A stretch of DNA of 15,644 nucleotides from Amoebophrya sp. AT5.2 (lineage: Eukaryota; Sar; Dinophyceae; Syndiniales; Amoebophryaceae), in NCBI GenBank assembly GCA_005223375.1, contig RXOD01005148.1:1-15644 (forward strand), written 5' to 3'. Under the pieces are notes generated by a model. It saw nothing but the letters and a program-made list of their open reading frames with translations. It was not told the DNA's origin and ran no database searches. Every line of letters begins with the position of its first letter. Within the stretch, counting starts at the first letter, position 1. Shown here piece after piece: positions 2,565 through 14,566 of the stretch. The position numbers and the translations under genes were made by a program.

Positions 2565-3722
2565 TCAAACCGCTGCCATACCAGCGGCGCTCCCAGTACC
2601 CTCGCCCCCACTTGCACGGACGCCTTTATTCTTGTTCCGGTTCCTGCTCCTCGTTTGTTTCTTTTTCTCCGCCCCTGCTCCTCCATCCTCGCCGTTTTTC
2701 TTCACTTTCATAAGATTCCCGAATGCTCCATTGGTTCCTAGCACCTTTTTCTTTTTCTTCATGCACGCCAACGGATTTGCTCTGTGTCCCCGCATCCGTT
2801 TTTTCTTTCCCGCGCGCGCTTCGAGCTCCAACTCCTTCTGGCGGATTTCGCTTTGCAAGACCGGAAGTTTTTTCACCTCCCACTCCGAGAGACCCTCGAC
2901 GACCCTCGTCGTGTTTCTGTCCGAGAGATAGTTGTTGGAGGCCTTGGAAAACGGCTCCAGTCTGGGCACTTGGCCGTTTAACGTAAAAATCGGCACACCC
3001 GGAATCAGCCGTAGCTGCTTTTTCAGACTTTCGTCCTGCGTGGCGACGAACCAACATCGGTAATTCCGCTCGCCGCGCCTCAGCTCGTTGCCGTCGCTTG
3101 AGGTCTTGTTTCTTGCTCTTGCTTCAGGGCCATCAGAGTCGTCATCAGATTCTTGGCCCTCCTCATCCTCGTCCTCGTCTTCCTCTGAGGCTTCATCTCG
3201 TTTGCAGCCCTTTTTGCAGCCCGCCGATGCGGATGCCGAGCTAGATGAAGACGACGCATTCGCAGCCTTGGCGTTGGATTTCTGCGCGACTACTATTTGC
3301 GCTCCCACGCTCTGCAGATTCGCTCCGTCCGCGTTTTTCGGGCATGACTGGAAGGTATCGCGGATGCAGTCTCTGGCTGTTTTACCCGCCTGCTTATTTT
3401 CAGCACCACGACCTTCCCCGGACTCACAGCAGCCGCACTTGATCTGGTAAAAGCCTTCGGCGATCTTCAGCGCGCCTTTATACTGCCCTCCGAGCCGTTC
3501 GACCATGTGTTTCAGCTCGTTCACCGCACACGTGGTCACCATTGGAGTGACCTTGTGCGTGCCCAGGATTTTGCAGAGCTGCTCCTTGATTTGGATCCGC
3601 GACTCCAGCGCGACGTGGATGAACGTCGGATCGAAGAGAACCCGGTAGGGCTCGTGGAAGCCGAAGGTCATTTTGTATCGACGGACGTCCTTCGACGCCT
3701 TCTTCTGCCGGTCGATCTTCAT
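2565..3722 (-). CDS. UTP23: rRNA-processing protein UTP23 (PIN-like domain)
   Basis: UTP23 is a nucleolar SSU processome factor needed for early 18S pre-rRNA cleavage and for handling the snR30/U17 snoRNA. The 385-residue single-exon protein starts MKIDRQKKASK, the basic N-terminus typical of the FCF1/UTP23 family. The PIN fold follows with FDPTF (Asp31), NEL (Glu69), and then FVATQDESLKKQL (Asp229) and PGVPIF. A cysteine cluster (C96, C98, C99, C119, C127) sits where the family carries a zinc-binding motif. The C-terminal RANPLACMKKKKK (315-326) matches the conserved NPLSxxKKKK tail of UTP23. The yeast and human proteins are about 250 residues. The excess here is mainly a Ser-rich and Asp/Glu-rich insertion at roughly 130-220 inside the PIN domain, plus a longer basic/Gly tail. 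FCF1 is the nearest alternative, but the tail and Cys cluster favour UTP23. The ATG at 3722 is the natural start. Confidence 0.9.
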   Translation of the reverse strand: MKIDRQKKASKDVRRYKMTFGFHEPYRVLFDPTFIHVALESRIQIKEQLCKILGTHKVTPMVTTCAVNELKHMVERLGGQYKGALKIAEGFYQIKCGCCESGEGRGAENKQAGKTARDCIRDTFQSCPKNADGANLQSVGAQIVVAQKSNAKAANASSSSSSASASAGCKKGCKRDEASEEDEDEDEEGQESDDDSDGPEARARNKTSSDGNELRRGERNYRCWFVATQDESLKKQLRLIPGVPIFTLNGQVPRLEPFSKASNNYLSDRNTTRVVEGLSEWEVKKLPVLQSEIRQKELELEARAGKKKRMRGHRANPLACMKKKKKVLGTNGAFGNLMKVKKNGEDGGAGAEKKKQTRSRNRNKNKGVRASGGEGTGSAAGMAAV

Positions 3723-4689
3723 CAGGGCGGAGGGGTGGTGGAATTCGAGGCTCTACTACGTACGTGTGGTACTTCTGAACTAGATTCTTGCGAGTCTACG
3801 CTTCTTCCATCCCTCGCTTTCTTTGCTTCATACTCGTCTGCGTCTGGAAAGGCAAATGAAAACAAGGTGGCGCTTTGAATTTTGAAATTTTTAGAAGATC
3901 GTCAGTACTATACGAAAAAATCAAGGCTGGCGCTGGACCGAAAGATCTGAGATCTAAGTCTAACCACGATCACGTCGGAGCAGGTGGATCTGTTTTCTCT
4001 TTGATACTTATATATATTGGGGACGGATCATCGCAATCGCATTTCAATGTCATCCGATTTGACCACTTTGAGGTCCATGAAAATCTGCTTGAAAGCGCGA
4101 GCACCTCACTGAACGTTTTCATCTCGTAGAATTGCCATGGACATGGACATCAAAACTCAGCTGACTTCTCGAGTCACACGTTGGTTTAGCGCAATCGAGA
4201 AAGCGGCGAAGATGCAGCGGTCGCGCGTAGCTTTTTGGGTCGGAATTCGTGGTACCCTTTGATCGACGTCGAGCTCGAGGTCGATCGATGAATGTTTAAA
4301 GGAAATCTAAATTTTGATTACACGAGCCGCAAGTCCAGGGCCAAATCTTCCCGAGAGCTTCAACACCAGTGTGGTTCGCACCACTTTGATCATGCGTACT
4401 ACTATAATTCTTGGACTGGGACTCGAGCTCGACCTCGACTTTGAAAAAATATACCGGCAAAAAGATGACACCAGCTGGCCGGCGTCGTGCATACCGTGTT
4501 TGTGTCTTCTTGTTCAGTGTTCGGTTATACTGCAGTTTTCGGCAAAAAAACATCTTCATCTTCACAATTACCATTCAGTTTCAATTCAGAAGATTAATAC
4601 GTCGTCCTGGGCGATAGTAAGTAAACCCTTCGCAGGCAGCAACTGACACTGTTGATGTTGAAACCGCCGCTAGCGCTACCAACATCGGC
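3723..4689. other. Intergenic stretch, no gene supported
   Basis: This lies between the carboxypeptidase stop and the UTP23 start. It must hold the carboxypeptidase 3' UTR and the UTP23 promoter/leader. The open frames here (for example 3875-4129 and 4314-4646, plus strand) show no recognisable domain. A near-perfect palindrome lies at 4262-4285 and is listed separately. No RNA gene was seen. Confidence 0.5.
4262..4285. repeat. 24-bp near-perfect palindrome (inverted repeat)
   Basis: The core TCGAGCTCGA is flanked by ATCGAC and GTCGAT. Only one symmetric pair (G/G) breaks the dyad over 24 bp. It lies in intergenic DNA about 540 bp upstream of the UTP23 start codon. It could be a protein-binding dyad or chance; related CTCGAGCTCGACCTCGAC sequence occurs around 4423-4440. 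Confidence 0.5.
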
Positions 4690-7600
4690 TTAATTGTACA
4701 CCTCTTGCGCTTCGTCCTGGCTCGATCGCACGTTCGCCATCGCCGACTTACCCCGCAATGAGAAGGGAAGCTTCGCCATCTTGGGAACTCCGCCGGATTT
4801 TGCGCTGCCCGTCACAACTCCCGCGCCGCTCTTATGGTGGGGCCAGATGGCAAGCGGCTAAGTGGTAAGTTGTGAAGTTCTGGGGGGTTCTTTGGGGTCC
4901 CTTTAAGTTCTTGGCCCAAGAACAAAAGAGGTCTGCAGTAGGAACGCAGGCAGCCCTTCGCCTTTAGCACGACAAGCACTCCTGCACCCCATACAGAGCT
5001 GGCATACCAATCCCAATCCTGAAAAGCTGCGCCTTATTTCCCCTGCTTTCAGGTCCTATCCCAATTCTAACCCAAGGCATCATCGCGCAAGAAGACCGCC
5101 ACCCCGTACCCCCCCCACAAAAATGGGGCATCTCTCAAACCGCCCGGCGCGAGCGCCGGGTAGACTTCGGAGCGCCGTAACGCACTCGCCGCCTGCCAAC
5201 AAGGGGACCACTCACTACGCAGTACTTACCACTTGCTTGCTTACCACCTGGTCCCGGCATAGCTCTTCACTCCGATGAAATCATTTAACATCCCCAGCGC
5301 CGCTTCTGGTTGGTCCATCGGCACCATGTGTCCCGCTTCGTACACTTGCAGAAAGGAGAACTTGCCCGCCTTTCTCAGCCTGCCGACCTGTTTGCCGCCT
5401 ACCATGTAGGCCGCGTCTTCCGCCGCGTTGAAGTCCGCCTTGCCGGGCCAGTCGAGCTTGAGAGCCCAAGCCTTGTTACCGAGCCAGTTGCAGATGTAGT
5501 CGACCTGGGGAGCAGCGATGGAGGCAGTGGAGAGCGAGTGGCCGCCGCTCATGATCTCTATCTTGTTCAATGTATGAAGATTCTGCAAGATCGCCGAGCA
5601 GAGACGTAACTGTGACACTGAGACTGACAGCTTTGCGCGGACGGAGAAAAAAAATAAATGAGGCGAAAAAGAAGCATAAAAGAGGTGAACCAGCAAAACC
5701 AATGGAGGAATCCAGAGAGAGAGAAGTGATGTTAGTTGCAGTAGTAGAAGTAGTACGTCTCCTGCGTAGATGAGGACATCAATCCCGTCGGCCATCATTT
5801 CTGGCAGCAGTAGGTGGAAGTTCATCATGAAGTCCGCGCGGAAATACGCGTTGACGACCATGTTGCAGGACGCCCATTTTCCTCTCGCACCTGGGTCGGA
5901 GAACCATCCAACGAACAATGAATAATCAAGGAAGTTCCATAAAAAAACCTATTGATGGCAAGCACACCAGACCCGCGCGTCACCTACTTCCAGGATCGAT
6001 CCTGCGATCGACGTCGAAGGACGGATACGGGGGATGAAGATGAATGGGAAAAGGAAAGGAAGACCACTAGCAGTACCGAGCTGCTTCTTGACCGCATCGT
6101 CGTTTAGGAACGTGGTGACCTGCGAGAAGTCGTAGCACAGCGGCGGAACCGCGCACTTGATCCGCATGTCGTATACGTTCATGCCGGTGAGTTGGTACGG
6201 AACCGTCTCCGCGTAGTTGCACACGAGGACCGATATGACCGGACCAGCGATGGTAAGCCTAGCCTGGCGATGGCGATTTCGCTCAACGATGGCAGCTGCG
6301 CCAAGGCGCTCGGAACCACCGACCCGGCGCGAAGCGCCGGGCGGTTGCAGAGATGCCCCCTTGTTTGGAGCAGGGGTCGGTGGAAAGCAAGTGAGTCATT
6401 AGAGGGAAAGGAAGGCCATGGAAAGCCAGTGGCTAGAAATAGAATGGCGCTACTTCTACGAGGGCGAGAGGCTGAACCTGAAAGTAAGCATGTTGCATCA
6501 TGGTAAAACTAAAAAATAAGATGGCGCCTGCTAAAATGGCGGGTCTTTGTTAGCTGTCGGGTAAAACGGTGTCAGGCCTGCTACCGACCGCGAAAAGTGG
6601 CCGCCTGTGCTCCTACTGCAGACCTCTTCCTAGGACCACAGCCGGGGCCGGGCCCCCGCCGAAGAGCCCCAATCAAAAAATTCACTCTCTTAAATCATGT
6701 AGTTGTAGTTGTACTAGTCATGCCACTTTATAGTACCCACTTACCATAGCTGGCCAATGGGCGACACCATAAACGCGCCCATGCATCCCGCGGTGGAGCC
6801 CGCGTTGCAGCTTTGGATCGCCTTCACGCAGGGCCCCACGCCACCCCGCATGATTGCCTGCGTCACCGGGTTTGTGATCACGCCCTTCTCCAGACTCCCG
6901 CCCTGCGACTTGCCGCCGTCGAACCCCATCTCGGGGTAGTGCTTGTACTGCTCCTCGGGGTCGGTCATGCCGTTCCCGATTGCGAGGCCCTTCAAATTGA
7001 TCTTCGTCTTTGGGCTCTGCTTGTTCATCTCCCAGATCTTGTGGCCGACGGCGGGGATGTAGTGCCCGGCGTAGGATTCGCCGGTGATGTAGAAGGGAAG
7101 TTTTTGGTACTGCGGAAACTTCTCGAGGAGACCAGTGAGAAAACCATACATGTCGATGGCGACGCCACTCTCGTTATGGTCGTAGGAGCCTGAGGTTGAG
7201 ATGTAGTCGTGCTGGGTCGACGTAGTGCCAGTTCAACATGTTTTTGTGATGACGTGAACTTCATCTTCTGAGATACTGCGATAGAAGTGTGAAGCTGCAA
7301 ACCTCTTCTACCAGCATCACGTAAAGGTATCGGTATGCCACCTTCGGAAAACCCCGTTCCCGCGGGTTGGTCGACCCAAATCACATTAGCGTTGTTATTC
7401 CAGGAGTGCGGGTTAGGTTTCAACGTCTTCCCGTCTTCTTCCACGCCACACGGACCGTTCTCGGACAACAGCGCCATTATTGACGAGCACCCGGGGCCGC
7501 CGGTAAGCCAGAGCACCAGCGGGGCGTTTGCGGGATCCTTCTTGGACTCAAACAGCCAGAAGAAGTACGACTTTTCGCTGTCGCCATTGCCCTTGAAAGC

Positions 7601-8053
7601 GATGTACCTGGCGGTAGTGTGTGTGTGTGTATGTGTCACAGATGATGCGCGGTTGCAAGCTGCACTGAACGACGACGTGGTCACAAGCCAGAGCAATAGC
7701 AACGACAACGACTTCTTGTACCCGCTGTGCTGCTTCACGCTTGGGTCGCATTCTTTGATGCCTTCCTTCAGTATCGTTTCGTGGACGACCTGAGATTCCG
7801 AGGCGGATTCCTCCTTTGCTGACAGTGCTCCGGAGGCTACCAGCTTTTTCGCCTCCGGGTCGTTCTTGTAGTGGGACTCCACGATTTTCCCGACGTCTTC
7901 CGAAGTTTCGGCCAGGTTCTGGAAATCCACAAGCAGCTGCGCATCTACGCCGTGGAAAAGGAGTGCTGCAGCCGCTGAGGCTGTTGTGAATCGGGAACAC
8001 GCCGCCCGCGAGGAACATCCCCGACGGGAAAGCCGACTATAGGACGGCGGCAT
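4690..8053 (-). CDS. Serine carboxypeptidase, S10 family (carboxypeptidase Y-like), seven exons
   Basis: This is a secreted or lysosomal/vacuolar exopeptidase that removes C-terminal residues. Exons: 8053-7722, 7607-7342, 7189-6768, 6224-6077, 5890-5757, 5504-5268, 4833-4690. They sum to 1683 nt, in frame, 560 residues. The N-terminus (basic, then TTASAAAALLF) is a signal peptide with a likely cut near VDA38. WLTGGPGCSS is at 144-153, VDQPAGTGFS at 189-198, nucleophile Ser238 in GESYAGHY, the catalytic Asp in YAGDVD (431-436), and His493 in EAGHMVPMDQP. ICNWLGNKAW (438-447) closely resembles carboxypeptidase Y. The ATG at 8053 is chosen; the longer frame upstream begins with TTG. Introns 1, 2, 4 and 5 are GT-AG. 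Introns 3 and 6 are introner-like elements flanked by direct repeats, and their exact splice sites are inferred from frame and family alignment. The 47-residue tail from exon 7 is the least certain part; without the last splice the protein would end GVKSYAGTRW. Confidence 0.9.
4926..4942. repeat. 17-nt block shared by both introners (copy in B)
   Basis: AAGAGGTCTGCAGTAGG is the exact reverse complement of 6612-6628 in element A. It sits near the same end of the element as the A copy, which supports a common origin of the two introns. Confidence 0.8.
5125..5176 (-). repeat. Conserved GC hairpin block of introner B
   Basis: The stem CCCGGCGC (5143-5150) and GCGCCGGG (5153-5160) is perfect with a 2-nt loop (GA). 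The surrounding 50 nt, read on the minus strand (GGCGCTCCGAA... to ...GAGATGCCCC), align with 6306-6359 of element A. Confidence 0.8.
5505..5756 (-). other. GT-AG intron 5 of the carboxypeptidase (252 nt)
   Basis: Donor GTACTACTTC follows GGAGAC, and acceptor CTCCCCAG precedes GTCGACTAC. Splicing gives the conserved IYAGD-VDYICNW. The length is a multiple of three with no in-frame stop, so the intron can be read as a Leu-rich 84-residue insert; family conservation shows it is not protein. Confidence 0.92.
5891..6076 (-). other. GT-AG intron 4 of the carboxypeptidase (186 nt)
   Basis: Donor GTACTGCTAG follows CAGCTCG, and acceptor CGACCCAG precedes GTGCGAGAGG. Splicing gives KKQLGARGKWASCNM, the expected family segment. 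Confidence 0.92.
6306..6359 (+). repeat. Conserved GC hairpin block of introner A
   Basis: The perfect 8-bp stem CCCGGCGC (6323-6330) and GCGCCGGG (6334-6341) has a GAA loop. The flanks GGCGCTCGGAA and GGCGGTT..AGAGATGCCCC match element B. Confidence 0.8.
6612..6628. repeat. 17-nt block shared by both introners (copy in A)
   Basis: CCTACTGCAGACCTCTT is identical to the reverse complement of 4926-4942. Confidence 0.8.
7190..7341 (-). other. GT-AG intron 2 of the carboxypeptidase (152 nt)
   Basis: Donor GTGGCATACC follows TCCGAAG, and acceptor TCAACCTCAG precedes GCTCCTACGAC. Splicing joins GFSEG to SYDHNESGVAIDMYGF as in other S10 enzymes. The length is not a multiple of three, so retention would shift the frame. 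Confidence 0.93.
7608..7721 (-). other. GT-AG intron 1 of the carboxypeptidase (114 nt) with a GT/AC microsatellite
   Basis: Donor GTACAAGAAG follows CACAGCGG, and acceptor CTACCGCCAG precedes GTACATCGC, giving HSGYIAFKGNGD. A (GT)n tract (plus strand 7616-7636) sits just before the acceptor. GTAC lies at both ends, so the boundary has a short direct repeat. It is 38 codons long with no in-frame stop, so it reads through as a false insert. Confidence 0.92.
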
Positions 8054-8873: not shown

Positions 8874-11800
8874 CTACCACTGCGTCTGCGTTTGCGTAAA
8901 ATTCTGCAAGTATGTTTTCACTCGCAGCACTTTATCCTCCAACGGAGACCAACTCTTCTTCTGCAGCAGTGCCAACGAATCGAGTAGCCTCCGGCAATTG
9001 CGTTCCTCGACGAGCTCGTCCTCATCGTCTGCACTTCCAGTTTCTCGAGCCGATTCTGACGCGGCCGCAGGTACCGCAGCCGTCATGTTCTGTATGTCCG
9101 CCGCGTGCTTTGTGAGAAAAATCGACAAGTACGTCTGCACGAGATCGGCCTGATGCCGTTTCCTCAACTGGTGTTCGAAAAAGCCAAGCATCTCCACGAT
9201 CTCGCCTATCGTTCCACCAGCGAGCGGGCCGATTTCTGATAAAGCGAGGTGCACCCCGGCCTGCGTCTGCTTCATGAGAAAGGACAGCACGCCGTCAAAG
9301 TCTTTTTTCTTAAGCAGCTTCTGGATGTCGGACGAGAACATGTCGGCGCCGATGAAGGCAGATGCTGCTGCTGCATTGCAGTTGGCGCGGAGGAGCTTTG
9401 AGCTGGAGGAGGAGCTCGAGGAGGCGGCTTTTGCTTTCGGTTCGGCACTTGCGCTTGCGGATCCTGCCGCTGCAGCGTTGTGGTTGTCGTCACCAGCGCC
9501 GCCGAGGAAGAAACTGGTGTTGTCTTTTTCGATGTTTGCACCGGCAAGCAAATCTCCGGAAGACAGTTTCGAATCCCCATCTTCGTCCTCGGCCGCATCT
9601 GCTTCACCGTCGTCCCTCCCCCCAAGGCTCATGAATTTCGTTTCGTTTCCCTCGTAGAACGTCGGCAGGAAGAACGGCGCAGCCTTCTTCGCAGCCTCTG
9701 CCTGGGTCACGGAGAGGGCATTTCGCTCTTTTATCTGTTCGTGATGAAGAATCGACTCGATGTGCGTCGCTGGGAGGTTTGACAGCTTCAGCTCGCATCC
9801 GAGGTCCTCGCTCTGCTCGTTCGTTCTTCCTCTCTGCAGGCTTCTCCGCTGCTGCACCTCCGCATCGATTTCCGCAAATGCCTTCGCCAGCGACGCGATC
9901 TCACCTTCATCTGCCGCCGCCTTCTCCACTTTTCGCTTCTTCGACACTGTCGCGCCCCCTCCCGCAGCCCGCTTCTGTGCGTTCGCGTTTGTCGTCGTGG
10001 CGTCGTCTTCGCCCCCGTTTGAACACGAGTCGTCCTCCTCGTCCACCTCGCGCCACGCAGTAACACCATCATCCTCGTCGTTCTCTCCACGACCACCTCC
10101 ACGACTCCTCTTCAGCATTCTGCTCGCGGCAGCCGCTTGGAGCAGTTTATTCCCCTTCTTCTTGCTCAGATCCATCGGGAACCCGCAATCTTCGGCACCC
10201 ACCTCCGCGCGCAGGAGCGGAGCCGAGTGGTCCAGGTCGAAGAGGTATTTGTTGGCCCAGCAGTATATCGCGCCCAGCTTCGCCGACTTCGGGTGCGTCG
10301 TGAGCATGTAGGCGTTGCTCGGCGAGAACTCGATCGCGATCACGGGAGAGGAAAACTTCAGCACGTCGATGCAGCGTGCGGAGGCGAGGTCGAACACGTG
10401 CAGCTTGCTGTTGACGGACGACACAAGCAACCAGCGGCCGTCCCGGCGCCACGACATGGCCAGGACCTTCGACCCGATGCTCTTGAAGTGCCGCACGACC
10501 TTTTTGGACAGCAAATCCACCACGACCACCGTTCCGTCGATCAGAGAAACGGCGAGGAGAGAGCCGACCGGCCCCGCGAAGGAGTTGGCGCCGGTAGGAA
10601 GCGTGATCTCGTGCTGGAGCGACTGCTGCTTGTGGTTCCAAACGCGAAGCTTGGCGTCGGCGGCATCGGAACACGCGGAGACAACCTGTGGTTTTGGGGA
10701 AATTCAAAGGATAGGGGCGGCGGGGAGCAGGTGTGGTGGATAGGTAGGCGGACGCTGCAAATTATTTTTCAGGGCGTGCCAAGGTCTTAAGCGATCACAT
10801 GATGATCGCATGCAAATTGATGTTTTTGAAAAGCAAGGCTACAAATGTACCTCAAGCTCCCTCGTTACTCCCACGCACGACACGGCGTTGCAATGCGCTC
10901 TCGAGCCGTTCTTCTGCTTCAGCTCTCTAAATTCGCCGCGGTGCTGCTGGGACTGGACTGCGAAGCGGTGCAACGAGCCGTCACTGTAGCCGATAAGCAC
11001 GTAGTTGCCGTCGGCGGTCATTTCCAGGGCAGTTGGCGTGGCGTCGAGATTCCTCTGCCTGAGCTCGATCTTCTTCGGTACCAGCGACTGGTACATCGCG
11101 GACCAGAGGTGCACCGTCTTGCTGTCGCGATGGGCCTGATTGAAGCGGAAGAGAATTAGAAATGAGACGAATAATTGTTATTTATGTTTTGCTTTATTTG
11201 GTGGATCAAATCTTCGGTTCATCCTCACTTGAGTTACTGATCGCGGAGCAGGCGAAATATAGACACACCTGACCCGAAGTACACCACCACGACACAACTT
11301 TAACTTTTACTTTTTTCCGAATCAATACTCAAAGAAGGCCATCATGCATAATATGCTTGCAAAGGACTCTGGACCTGCCTGCAGGCACTCCCGCAAGCAT
11401 GGCATTGCTATTGCATTCTGAGAAGGGAGCGCAACCAACATCAAAAGAAAGCGAATGCGTCTATCGAATTACCGTGCAGACTGCGGGCCAGTCGAAGTGT
11501 CGCAGCGCGGAAAACCCCATGTCGACGATGGCTCCGAGCTTGTCGTCGCCCTTCACGAAGCCGCCCATGCCGCCCTTGTTCCCCGAGATTGAAAACGCGA
11601 CATTTTGGTGCTGCTGGATCGTGGACACCTTTGACACCACGCCGTCGCAGGCCGCGAGCAGTTCGTTGCCGTCCTCCTTGTAGAATTTCATGGTCCGGAT
11701 CGGGTGCACATTCCCAAGTCGCTGCCTCAGCGAGCGCGGGAGTCCGTCCGGCTGGTCGAAGACGTACATCAGCAGCGAGTTCCTCCCCTGCGCAATGAGA

Positions 11801-13008
11801 AAGGGCTCCCCTCCCAAAAATTGCACTTTGACGCAATCCTCGACCGCTTCCACGTGTGTGTGCAGCTTCGTGTTCAGGTCCCAGACGACAAAACCCTGGT
11901 CGTTGGCGGAGACCAGTTGGTCGGCGAGTTTCGAGTTGGAAGAGTTGTTCCCGGAGCCTGCTGTGGTGGAGGACACCCCTCCCGCACCGGCGACGCAAGC
12001 GGTGAGGCCCTTATCCGAGCGGAACGAAAGCGAGTGAATCTTGCCTCCGGAAGAGGAGACCTGCTGTACCTTCCAGAGGAAGGTGTCGGTGAGACCGTTG
12101 AAAAGCGAAATGGTGCCGTCCGCGAAAGCGATCGCGGCGGTGTCGGCGACGGTGGGGCACGGAGTGATGCACTCGATGCCGGGATTTCTTTGCGCGTCCT
12201 GCGCTTTTCCTCCTCCAGCATCTCCACTTCCTCCTCCGAAGTGGTTGGTGAGCTTGCCGACTTTCTTCATCTTCGAGTAGTTGAAGACGAAGAGCTCACC
12301 AGTGCTCGTGCCAAGCAAAACCTTGTTCACCCACGTGGGCATCGGTGTGACGCACGTTATCTTCCCGCGACGCTGAACTTGTTCATCCTCAAAGAGCCCG
12401 TAGTTGTCCGCCTGGCAATCGATCGTCGCGTGCAGCTTCTTCCAGCACTTGATGTTTGCCGCAGATTTATTGTTTGTTCCACCGCTTTTAATTCTCGCCG
12501 TCTCCACCTCGTCGACCCTCTCGTCGTCCACAGCATGCAAATCGAAGAACAGCACCACTCCACCGCCGCCAAACGCTTTCTCGGCAACCACTGCCACGAA
12601 TTTGCCACCGATCGGAATGATTTTCTGCACGGAGCAGTTTCTGCAGTCCAGCTTGCCCAATTCCTCGTGCTTGCTCCAGATGTAAACAATCCCGTCCGGC
12701 AAGGCCGTCAGCGTGGCCTCCCCGATCGTCGCCACGGCACGCACCCTGTCGTTGAAATAGGGCGAAATGTAGCTGAGGCGAAGCTTGTCGGTGTCGTAGA
12801 TCTGAAACCCATTGCCCTTGCCCACGGCGAGGAAATCCTTCGTGCCGAGCTTCTGGAGCGAAAACGGAACGGATGTGTCTGCGACAGTGCCAATGGTCAT
12901 GGCGGGTCGGAAAAGAGTGGACTGGTTCACGACCAGCGCGTCGCTCACTGCACCCCGCTCGCCGGCGGCGCCGGCACTGTTCTTCAGAACCGTGGCGCCG
13001 CGTGACAT
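8874..13008 (-). CDS. UTP21: U3 snoRNP/SSU processome protein UTP21 (WDR36 homologue), three exons
   Basis: UTP21 is a nucleolar WD40 scaffold of the UTP-B subcomplex, acting in early 18S pre-rRNA processing. Exons 13008-11473, 11135-10851 and 10685-8874 give 1210 residues. Diagnostic stretches are VPFSLQKLGTKDFLAVG and FQIYDTDKLRL near residues 45-80, strongly like the WDR36 N-terminus. WD-type blades continue through exon 1 (DGIVYIWS, DNTISLF-like ADGTISLFNG, FVVWDLN), exon 2 (VHLWSAMY, IGYSDGSLHRF) and exon 3 (AKLRVWN, DGRWLLVSS, LHVFDLAS, AIYCW), compatible with the double propeller of the family. The C-terminal Utp21 domain includes APFFLPTF and then, from ~1056, FDGVLSFLMKQTQAGVHL and LVQTYLSIFL, matching the WDR36 tail. 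Between them lies an acidic/Ser-rich region with a likely nuclear signal SKKRKVEK (~855-862). Yeast and human proteins are about 940-950 residues; the surplus is this low-complexity region and similar loops. The ATG at 13008 is the first in frame. Confidence 0.93.
10686..10850 (-). other. GT-AG intron 2 of UTP21 (165 nt)
   Basis: Donor GTACATTTG follows GAGCTTGAG, and acceptor AAACCACAG precedes GTTGTCTCC. It is phase 0 and carries an in-frame stop (TAG) at its fourth codon. Splicing restores a WD repeat ending LRVWN. Confidence 0.92.
11136..11472 (-). other. GT-AG intron 1 of UTP21 (337 nt)
   Basis: Donor GTAATTCGATAG follows TGCACG, and acceptor TTCAATCAG precedes GCCCATCGC. Splicing gives WPAVCT-AHRDSKTVHLW, equivalent to the WDR36 region joining its two propellers. 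I see no terminal inverted repeat or introner hairpin in it. Confidence 0.92.
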
Positions 13009-14566
13009 TTTGGAGAGTTTGAGGGTCTACTAGTTTTATGTTTGTTGCAGCTAATATGGAGGTGGAGGAGGTGGATATGAATGGATAATATCAATGTCCG
13101 GTATGGTAGAGGCAATTCAAAAGCAGTCAACGCCTCCAACAAAAAATCTTTGGCGTTCTACAATAAGGCGGCTTCTTGCAGCGCTCGCCCTCACGTACAC
13201 GTAGACGTACCTATGAGAGCCTGCAGACATATTAAGCCCGAAGGCAAAATTGAAATTGTTACCAAAAATGTAAATAACATCAAGCAGGAGCAGCTTGCAT
13301 CGGAAGAAGGAGTCGCGTGACACAGATCGCATTTATGCACGAAGATCTTTGATCATGATCATTTAAACAGCTACATCTACACCAGCTGTCGCTGTGGTTC
13401 ATTTACCGATTTATCGAGCGCATTGCCGTTGTTTGGCGATCGTGTTCATCACGACAAAAGTCAGTGGATCAATTTAATCAGCAGGAGCATGAGGGTCATT
13501 CATTGCGACAACATGCAGAAAGAGCGAAGAAACTTCGCTATTCGAAGCATGCGCACACAAGCCACAACAGCGCCTGCCATAGCAGCACTTTAGGATTAGG
13601 CAGGGGGAGCCCCCGCACACGCCCGGAAGTCTTCTATTGCTATTCCTTTCTCTATCTGTCTCTTTGTCTTTCATCCATGGGAGAAGTACTGTCTAGTGCC
13701 GCTCAGTCAGAGCAGCGACAGTCAGTCTTAGGGACAACGCCCGCCCGTGCGTAATCATACTGCACTCAAATAAGCACAGCGGCAGATGACTAACAAGCAC
13801 CAGAGCTGACACTTTAGGCCTCAGAAGAGAGGCGCGACGACCGCAACGGGTCGGAATACCACTACCAACAGCCTGAAGTGAGATGGAGTAAGGGAAAGTG
13901 AGCTATTCCGCGCCCGCACGCGTGATCATCGACGAGCTGCGTCAACTGGGCCTTGCCGCGTTGCCCTAAGCTACTGGATCATCATCGTGAAAAACTAAAC
14001 CTGCAACAGCCTGCAAAGTAGACGTAGCAAGAGCACCATCGATGATCCCGTCTATGCAGAGTCCTCGTCCTCATCATGGTTGCAATGTGTTTTGTGAAGA
14101 ATAGCCAACGTAAGATGAAACACAGAGCTCCTCCTCCTGCTAGAATATCACCGAAGTATCTATATATATTAGTGTTTAAATTATGATCATGTTACAAGGA
14201 AGCCTGAAGAGCAAAAGAACTAGAGAGTTGTAAAGAGGAAAAGTATCTATAGCCCAGTTCAACGAATTCAATTCTTGTCGATCTCGAACATCGATGCCAC
14301 GAAACAAAGGACGAAATGCAAGATTGTGGAAACGGGTCGGTAAGTAGGAACAAAGTAAATACTTAGATAGGTAAGAGAAATAAAATTGAATAAGCAGTGA
14401 AATAAGGTAGCCACATAGCAAACTACGGCCACTGGGAGAGCTCATCTACAGTGCTTGCGTTCGTATCTCAAATGTACTGACCTTGGCCTAGGTTAGTACA
14501 CCCCCAGTCAGGTTGCAATGTGTAAAATTCATCTAACCCGCCCATTGTAGACGTAGAGGTAGAGCC
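13009..14566. other. Intergenic stretch of 1.56 kb, no gene supported
   Basis: This lies between the PAP2 phosphatase stop and the UTP21 start. It should hold the UTP21 promoter/5' leader next to 13009 (a purine-rich GGAGGTGGAGG tract lies at 13057-13072) and the PAP2 3' UTR. Open frames at 13081-13320 (+), 13464-13754 (+) and 14176-14445 (-) have no recognisable family. No tRNA-type T-loop or spliced-leader motif was found. Confidence 0.5.

Follow-up and report, generated by a model that had tools for sequence, protein, structure and literature searches.

Does an insertion that is built like a DNA transposon, and that has no canonical splice site at either end, act as an intron, and if so, where is it cut? 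The question is raised by a serine carboxypeptidase gene on contig RXOD01005148.1 of Amoebophrya sp. AT5.2 (assembly GCA_005223375.1), the whole 15,644 nucleotides of which are referred to here as the window (contig C1352 in our numbering of the searched genome, which comprises 50.7 Mb in 2759 contigs). A preliminary description, made from the letters of the window, had proposed that an element near the end of this gene, here called iF, is an introner that is spliced without GT-AG.

Introns of this kind have been described in other members of the genus. In the portions of the cited papers available to us, non-canonical introns make up more than 60% of the total in Amoebophrya strains A25 and A120; some of them carry inverted repeats of 8-20 nt together with direct repeats of 3-5 nt, and the introner families are called strain-specific (Farhat et al. 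2021, PMC7789003). For AT5, the introns are given as 99.98% GT-AG, a figure of the genome paper of John et al. 2019 (via PMC7789003 and PMC11453091), and for Amoebophrya ex Karlodinium a 2025 study describes mainly GT-AG introns and proposes that only a subset of the genus possesses the unusual ones (PMC12005148). Papers on euglenids, diplonemids and Amoebophrya treat the recognition of introns that lack GT-AG as an unsolved question (PMC4770533, PMC12621601, PMC7789003, in the parts available to us). A search by title and beginning of abstract, with preprints and most subscription papers outside its scope, retrieved no other primary study of Amoebophrya introner splicing.

The insertion and its host gene

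The carboxypeptidase gene contains four GT-AG introns and two copies of one element family, iF and iC, whose ends give no GT-AG (Table 1). The paired arms abutting direct repeats that had been described at iF were found at the places given for them; they are 38 nt each and 76% complementary. The repeat itself had been taken as an exact 6-bp GCTCTT with the element at 4834-5261. A 6-bp duplication was rejected after comparison of 56 two-ended copies from the genome, as the repeat consists of 5 bp (GCTCT) and one chance match: its sixth base is a T that belongs to the element and happens to be matched by the host T at 5267, and the element spans 4833-5261. Removal of iF with one repeat restores the frame, as had been stated; the last exon amounts to 45 residues and a stop. 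On the minus strand, none of the seven equivalent cut positions along the repeat of iF gives GT-AG, in agreement with the preliminary description, and none gives GC-AG or AT-AC. The two duplication copies of iC are no longer alike, with GCGTT on one side and TCGGT on the other, and since they differ at 2 of 5 bases this insertion is, from its sequence, likely old.

Table 1. Positions of the carboxypeptidase gene, its introns and its two introner copies in the window.
Feature	Position	Strand	Remark
Host gene, serine carboxypeptidase (PF00450)	4690..8053	-	Pfam match
Host gene exons	8053-7722, 7607-7342, 7189-6772, 6228-6077, 5890-5757, 5504-5262, 4827-4690	-	
GT-AG intron iA	7608..7721	-	
GT-AG intron iB	7190..7341	-	
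Introner copy iC	6234..6771	-	538 bp; same family as iF, opposite orientation to iF
iC duplication copy, transcript 5' side, GCGTT (minus strand)	6772..6776	.	kept in P0001 coding sequence
iC duplication copy, transcript 3' side, TCGGT (minus strand)	6229..6233	.	absent from P0001 coding sequence
GT-AG intron iD	5891..6076	-	
GT-AG intron iE	5505..5756	-	
Introner copy iF	4833..5261	-	429 bp; starts TATG, ends CATA
iF terminal inverted repeat, transcript 5' arm	5224..5261	-	two GGTAAG motifs
iF terminal inverted repeat, transcript 3' arm	4833..4870	-	
iF target-site duplication copy, transcript 5' side, GCTCT	5262..5266	.	
iF target-site duplication copy, transcript 3' side, GCTCT	4828..4832	.	
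iF intron as removed	4828..5261	-	434 nt; position along repeat not resolvable at iF

The four GT-AG introns of this gene start with GTAC or GTGG and are thereby less like GTAAGT than the unused motifs in the introner arms. Elsewhere in the window, the next gene (8877-13026, minus strand) consists of several exons and codes for a WDR36/Utp21 protein, and an open frame with an Fcf1 domain lies at 2568-3752 on the minus strand.

A transcript-derived protein and the position of the cut

A model of the spliced carboxypeptidase was written from the genome before the protein search, which covered 5.8 billion proteins. With iF and iC removed exactly at their ends, the model has 560 residues and is identical over all 560 to a transcript-derived protein of MMETSP / EukProt (here P0001, 'Transcript_784 ... 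type:complete len:561'), the identity spanning both the iC junction (GCMGAFLVCNY) and the 45 residues after iF. Two oppositely oriented copies are absent from this protein, exactly at the element ends, and the proposal that the element acts as an intron is supported by it. The preliminary description had named an unspliced transcript ending near 5241 as one outcome that would speak against an intron; the sole matching transcript-derived protein has the element removed. We would like to note that the transcript evidence is a protein sequence from the transcriptome of an unstated strain, and that a strain free of the insertions would give the same protein. P0001 may come from strain Ameob2, presumably the single Amoebophrya transcriptome of MMETSP.

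Among proteins assigned to a named organism, the nearest are those of Amoebophrya A120 and A25, at 68% identity, both of which share GCMGAFLVCNY. A same-species transcript-derived match was obtained for one of three query proteins, the carboxypeptidase. The protein encoded at a second locus (L053) had no match in the protein search, and the cystathionine beta-lyase encoded at a third (L056) retrieved only relatives, with at most 61% identity among the 120 matches listed. One study set aside the Ameob2 transcriptome for many missing genes (PMC6249206, in the part available to us), and such missing genes may explain the absent second and third matches.

Due to its diverged duplication, iC also bears on the position of the cut. 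The Ala-Phe of P0001 at the iC junction can be encoded only with GCGTT, in full or up to its fourth base; the 5' duplication copy was therefore kept and the 3' copy removed. By this reading the cut at iC is fixed by the sequence: the exon would keep the 5'-side copy (or all but its last base), the 3'-side copy would leave with the intron, and the intron would start with the first base of the element and end 5 nt beyond the last, or lie one base upstream at both ends.

The family across the genome

The genome search that had been suggested, for more copies with different short direct repeats, returned many, and these are flanked by differing 5-bp repeats. With the element as query, 57 matching pieces were obtained when 40 of 157 candidates were scored, and queries with either half of the element or with iC added more. 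When at most 3 mismatches were allowed, a 22-nt pattern of the element end matched 1060 genome sites (541 forward, 519 reverse) as against 7 sites (4 and 3) for the reversed control, so the family ends are not chance matches. Among 88 fetched, partly overlapping loci (GC content 55.6%, window 53.9%), 56 distinct two-ended copies were recognised (54 by the first method used). They are 176-836 bp long, mostly 400-500, and the top pairwise identity between copies over at least 150 nt is 92%. The arm consensus of about 38 nt (TATGGNGRGACCAGRTGGTAAGTGGYYAAGTGGTAAGT) contains GGTAAGT twice, with the GT of these motifs lying 17 and 32 nt inside the element.

The duplication matches at all five bases in 28 of the 56 copies, at four in 11, at three in 4, at two in 3, at one in 5 and at none in 5; some of the 17 copies with three or fewer matching bases have wrongly paired ends, one of them at L082. 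Counted by position, agreement is 70-80% at each of the five positions and 21% at the two positions that directly flank them, so the duplication is 5 bp long. Six further copies, fetched later and chosen for both ends fitting the pattern, all have an exact 5-bp duplication. A duplication of constant length and inverted ends, the features of a DNA transposon with terminal inverted repeats or of a MITE-like element, bear out the transposon layout that had been claimed for iF, and the family likely consists of non-autonomous DNA transposons with inverted ends and 5-bp duplications.

In coding orientation, 16 of 33 exact copies have G as the middle base of the duplication and 6 have C, a skew that may reflect an insertion preference or a strand-linked signal. 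One gene can host several introners: L087 has two copies, and the DNA polymerase epsilon gene on contig C411 has at least two (L063 and L094).

Coding frames and conserved domains at other copies

The 39 copies with at least four matching duplication bases were used for a frame test. After exact removal the frame is open, and its shorter side has a median length of 99 codons; shifting the removal by 3 nt gives medians of 98-100 codons, and shifting it by 1, 2, 4 or 5 nt gives 39-57. The median shorter-side frame is 106.5 codons at the 28 exact copies versus 55 at 530 random flank positions of the same loci, of which 83% have at least 30 codons on both sides. Because GC-rich DNA commonly holds long chance frames, the threefold periodicity is a stronger signal of the frame than frame length.

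Conserved domains provide a second view of the junctions. Carboxypeptidase Y aligns without a gap at iC after exact removal, and the same holds for cystathionine beta-lyase at L056 (where the site lies inside the YTRSGNPT motif), DNA polymerase epsilon at both L063 and L094, AP-complex mu at L033, MAP kinase at L091 and dTDP-glucose dehydratase at L082. At L068 (DUF285) and L050 (TPT), the junction is crossed by equal Pfam spans. Gap-free junctions in conserved domains are thereby found at iC and eight further copies, nine in all, some of the alignments being gapped elsewhere. The Pfam scan was applied to 20 of the 39 restored frames, chosen by eye as likely domain holders, and gave 8 matches above the family cut-off, 2 weak matches only and 10 frames with none. 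Five of the 8 matches cross the junction (L056, L063, L033, L050 and L068), two begin after it (L029 and L047), and one, in the carboxypeptidase gene, ends just before the iF junction. L082, L091 and L094 were chosen by eye as known domains. The frame at L090 resembles a Nudix domain by eye.

Splice sites, orientation and pairing of the ends

In the counts of splice pairs, orientation and border bases, the coding strand was mostly taken as that of the longest frame, which can err in GC-rich DNA. With this proviso, sliding the cut along the repeat makes no GT-AG, GC-AG or AT-AC possible in 24 of the 28 exact copies, while a canonical pair is possible in four (one GT-AG, one GC-AG, two AT-AC). 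The duplication on the 3' side ends in AG in 1 of 33 copies, L089 having been omitted from this count because its coding strand was unclear. Relative to the gene, 22 copies are in sense and 16 in antisense orientation (38 of 39 assigned); among eight copies whose orientation is anchored by Pfam, 3 are sense and 5 antisense.

The transcript 5' and 3' arms were compared over 60 positions, and p<0.01 was reached at 2, about what chance gives for 240 tests. Pyrimidine content, in keeping with this symmetry, is 34% in the 5' arm and 65% in the 3' arm (44 copies). Because both orientations occur and the arms look alike, the signals for removal likely lie in the mirrored ends, or elsewhere in an orientation-blind form. 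Predicted folds pair the ends of iF and of iC, weakly better than shuffled sequences (z -1.86 and -1.18). Arms of the same copy are complementary at 17.1 of 22 positions versus 16.9 +/- 0.18 for arms shuffled between copies; being no more complementary than shuffled arms, they give the hairpin no support from covariation. Among the spliceosomal RNAs, U6 was found twice in the genome. Searches for U1 and for U2 both gave nothing there, and since U2 was also not found and none of U1, U2 and U6 was matched in the control genomes, a loss of U1 cannot be claimed.

Explanations for the removal of the element

We consider it highly probable that iF belongs to a family whose members have inverted ends and 5-bp duplications and are likely non-autonomous DNA transposons, and that these members, which sit in coding frames, are likely to leave the pre-mRNA as introns cut exactly at the element ends, without GT-AG. 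Removal of the family copies would take place at the RNA level and would be carried out by the spliceosome, which would also splice the GT-AG introns found in the carboxypeptidase gene. The paired inverted ends would bring the two exon ends together, and the signals would then read the same in either orientation. Spliceosomal removal at the RNA level guided by the paired ends appears most likely.

The element might carry its own splice-site guide, an idea to which we assign only a small chance, in which the folded arms form within the intron a helix like that between a donor and U1. ACUUACC is the run of letters by which U1 RNA reads a donor; the 5' arm would offer the donor letters GGUAAGU twice, and the 3' arm their complement, ACUUACC. 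The cut would then fall 17 nt upstream, at the stem base, and on the opposite side it would be displaced by a constant 5 nt; the mirrored arms would work in either orientation with no need of GT, of AG or perhaps of U1. If this were true, every fresh insertion would be removed by splicing immediately.

Four other explanations have to be set against spliceosomal removal guided by the paired ends. That the copies are plain transposon insertions which break genes is scarcely credible: terminal inverted repeats and duplications are indeed typical of a DNA transposon, but the spliced carboxypeptidase is identical to P0001, which contradicts this for iF and iC, and the insertions would have disrupted the genes for polymerase epsilon, MAP kinase and AP mu, among others. 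Nor do we give much credit to ordinary GT-AG splicing at the GGTAAGT motifs inside the ends, with a short stretch of the element left in the protein, which we regard as very improbable despite the two motifs in the arm consensus and an in-frame GT-AG path that can be read by eye through iC. P0001 is free of such residues, so that GT-AG splicing inside the arms is rejected for iF and iC, the two transcript-supported copies, in which the GGTAAGT motifs are not the splice site; it is disfavoured at the eight further junctions, where, as at iC, conserved domains align without an insertion. Ciliate internal eliminated sequences are cut out of DNA, and an excision of this type, or a transcriptome strain that lacks the insertions, would account for a joined form that is known from one protein sequence of an unstated strain; the GCGTT kept at iC would equal the pre-insertion site too. 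We nevertheless hold this to be quite unlikely, as iC is likely old and yet the protein is identical over 560 residues, which would require the strains to be nearly the same, and the assembled frames, with two copies in DNA polymerase epsilon and others in conserved enzymes, are interrupted unless the copies are removed somehow. In A25 and A120, moreover, the introns were called from RNA-seq against the genome (PMC7789003, in the part available to us).

The most probable of the four is a dedicated pathway outside the spliceosome in which the paired ends are recognised, an option also considered for the nonconventional introns of euglenids; we regard it as possible, if doubtful. It would fit the near absence of AG at the 3' cut, the occurrence of copies in genes in both orientations and the end pairing predicted by folding, and the euglenid introns themselves likewise have borders that vary, ends that pair and, frequently, direct repeats, while their removal mechanism is described as unknown in the available part of PMC4770533. 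The four GT-AG introns of the carboxypeptidase gene and the U6 in the genome, however, indicate that a spliceosome is likely at hand, which the 3' arm with its 65% pyrimidine could serve, and the pairing is without support from covariation.

Comparison with known systems

The likeness to Amoebophrya introners that had been suggested is confirmed by the closest named proteins, those of A120 and A25, and by the same kind of intron in Farhat et al. 2021. As with the introner elements of those strains, the family consists of repeated introns without GT-AG, with inverted repeats near both ends and direct repeats over the exon-intron border (3-5 nt there, 5 bp here), and its inverted repeats begin with TAT as in families of A120 (PMC7789003, part available). 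Non-GT-AG borders, inverted repeats at the ends, direct repeats within 3-5 nt and a genome-wide family are all found here, with the borders judged through a transcript-derived protein in place of RNA-seq junction reads. Differences are the protein identity of about 68% to either strain, in the one gene compared, and an end repeat of about 38 nt with two GGTAAGT, as against the 8-20 nt described there (PMC7789003, part available). The iF family is a new family of Amoebophrya-type introners. What is new in it is the exact 5-bp geometry, the removal of both orientations in one gene product and the side of the duplication copy that is kept; in the available part of PMC7789003 we found no treatment of both orientations or of the cut position at a diverged duplication.

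The introners of Aureococcus likewise have direct repeats and terminal inverted repeats and form introns, but canonical splicing motifs are described for them in the available part of PMC7789003, unlike the present copies; canonical sites supplied by the element or the duplication, the mark of GT-AG spliceosomal introners, do not define the borders of this family. The nonconventional introns of euglenids and diplonemids, whose hosts belong to other eukaryote groups than Amoebophrya, resemble the family in their variable borders, end pairing, direct repeats at the borders and proposed MITE-like origin (PMC4770533, PMC12621601, parts available). In euglenids, positions +4, +5 and +6 pair with -8, -7 and -6, mostly as CAG/CTG (PMC4770533, part available), a pattern that is absent here when the arm consensus is read with the iC cut: CCAG/CTGG lie at +11 to +14, and the pairing is offset by 5 nt. 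Fritillaria borealis also has non-GT-AG introns beside a U2-type spliceosome, where they make up most introns, and introner transposons with weak sites have been discussed (PMC13326754, PMC7789003, parts available). Its non-GT-AG introns mostly follow an AG-A(N) pattern (PMC7789003, part available), whereas the 3' border bases here are set by the target site.

For the recognition of introns without GT-AG, the family offers a clean case: the element is constant, the border is dictated by the target site, both orientations are absent from one protein, and a diverged duplication tells which copy is kept. For AT5.2, the figure of 99.98% GT-AG introns (as cited in the available parts of PMC7789003 and PMC11453091) would likely rest on annotation blind to such introns, and so would the 2025 view of a subset of the genus (PMC12005148, part available).

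An observation on the assembly may be added. At least seven of the zero-mismatch ends listed are found no more than about 100 bases from where a contig begins (C7, C13, C199, C277, C507, C542 and C772), as if the assembly broke inside introners.
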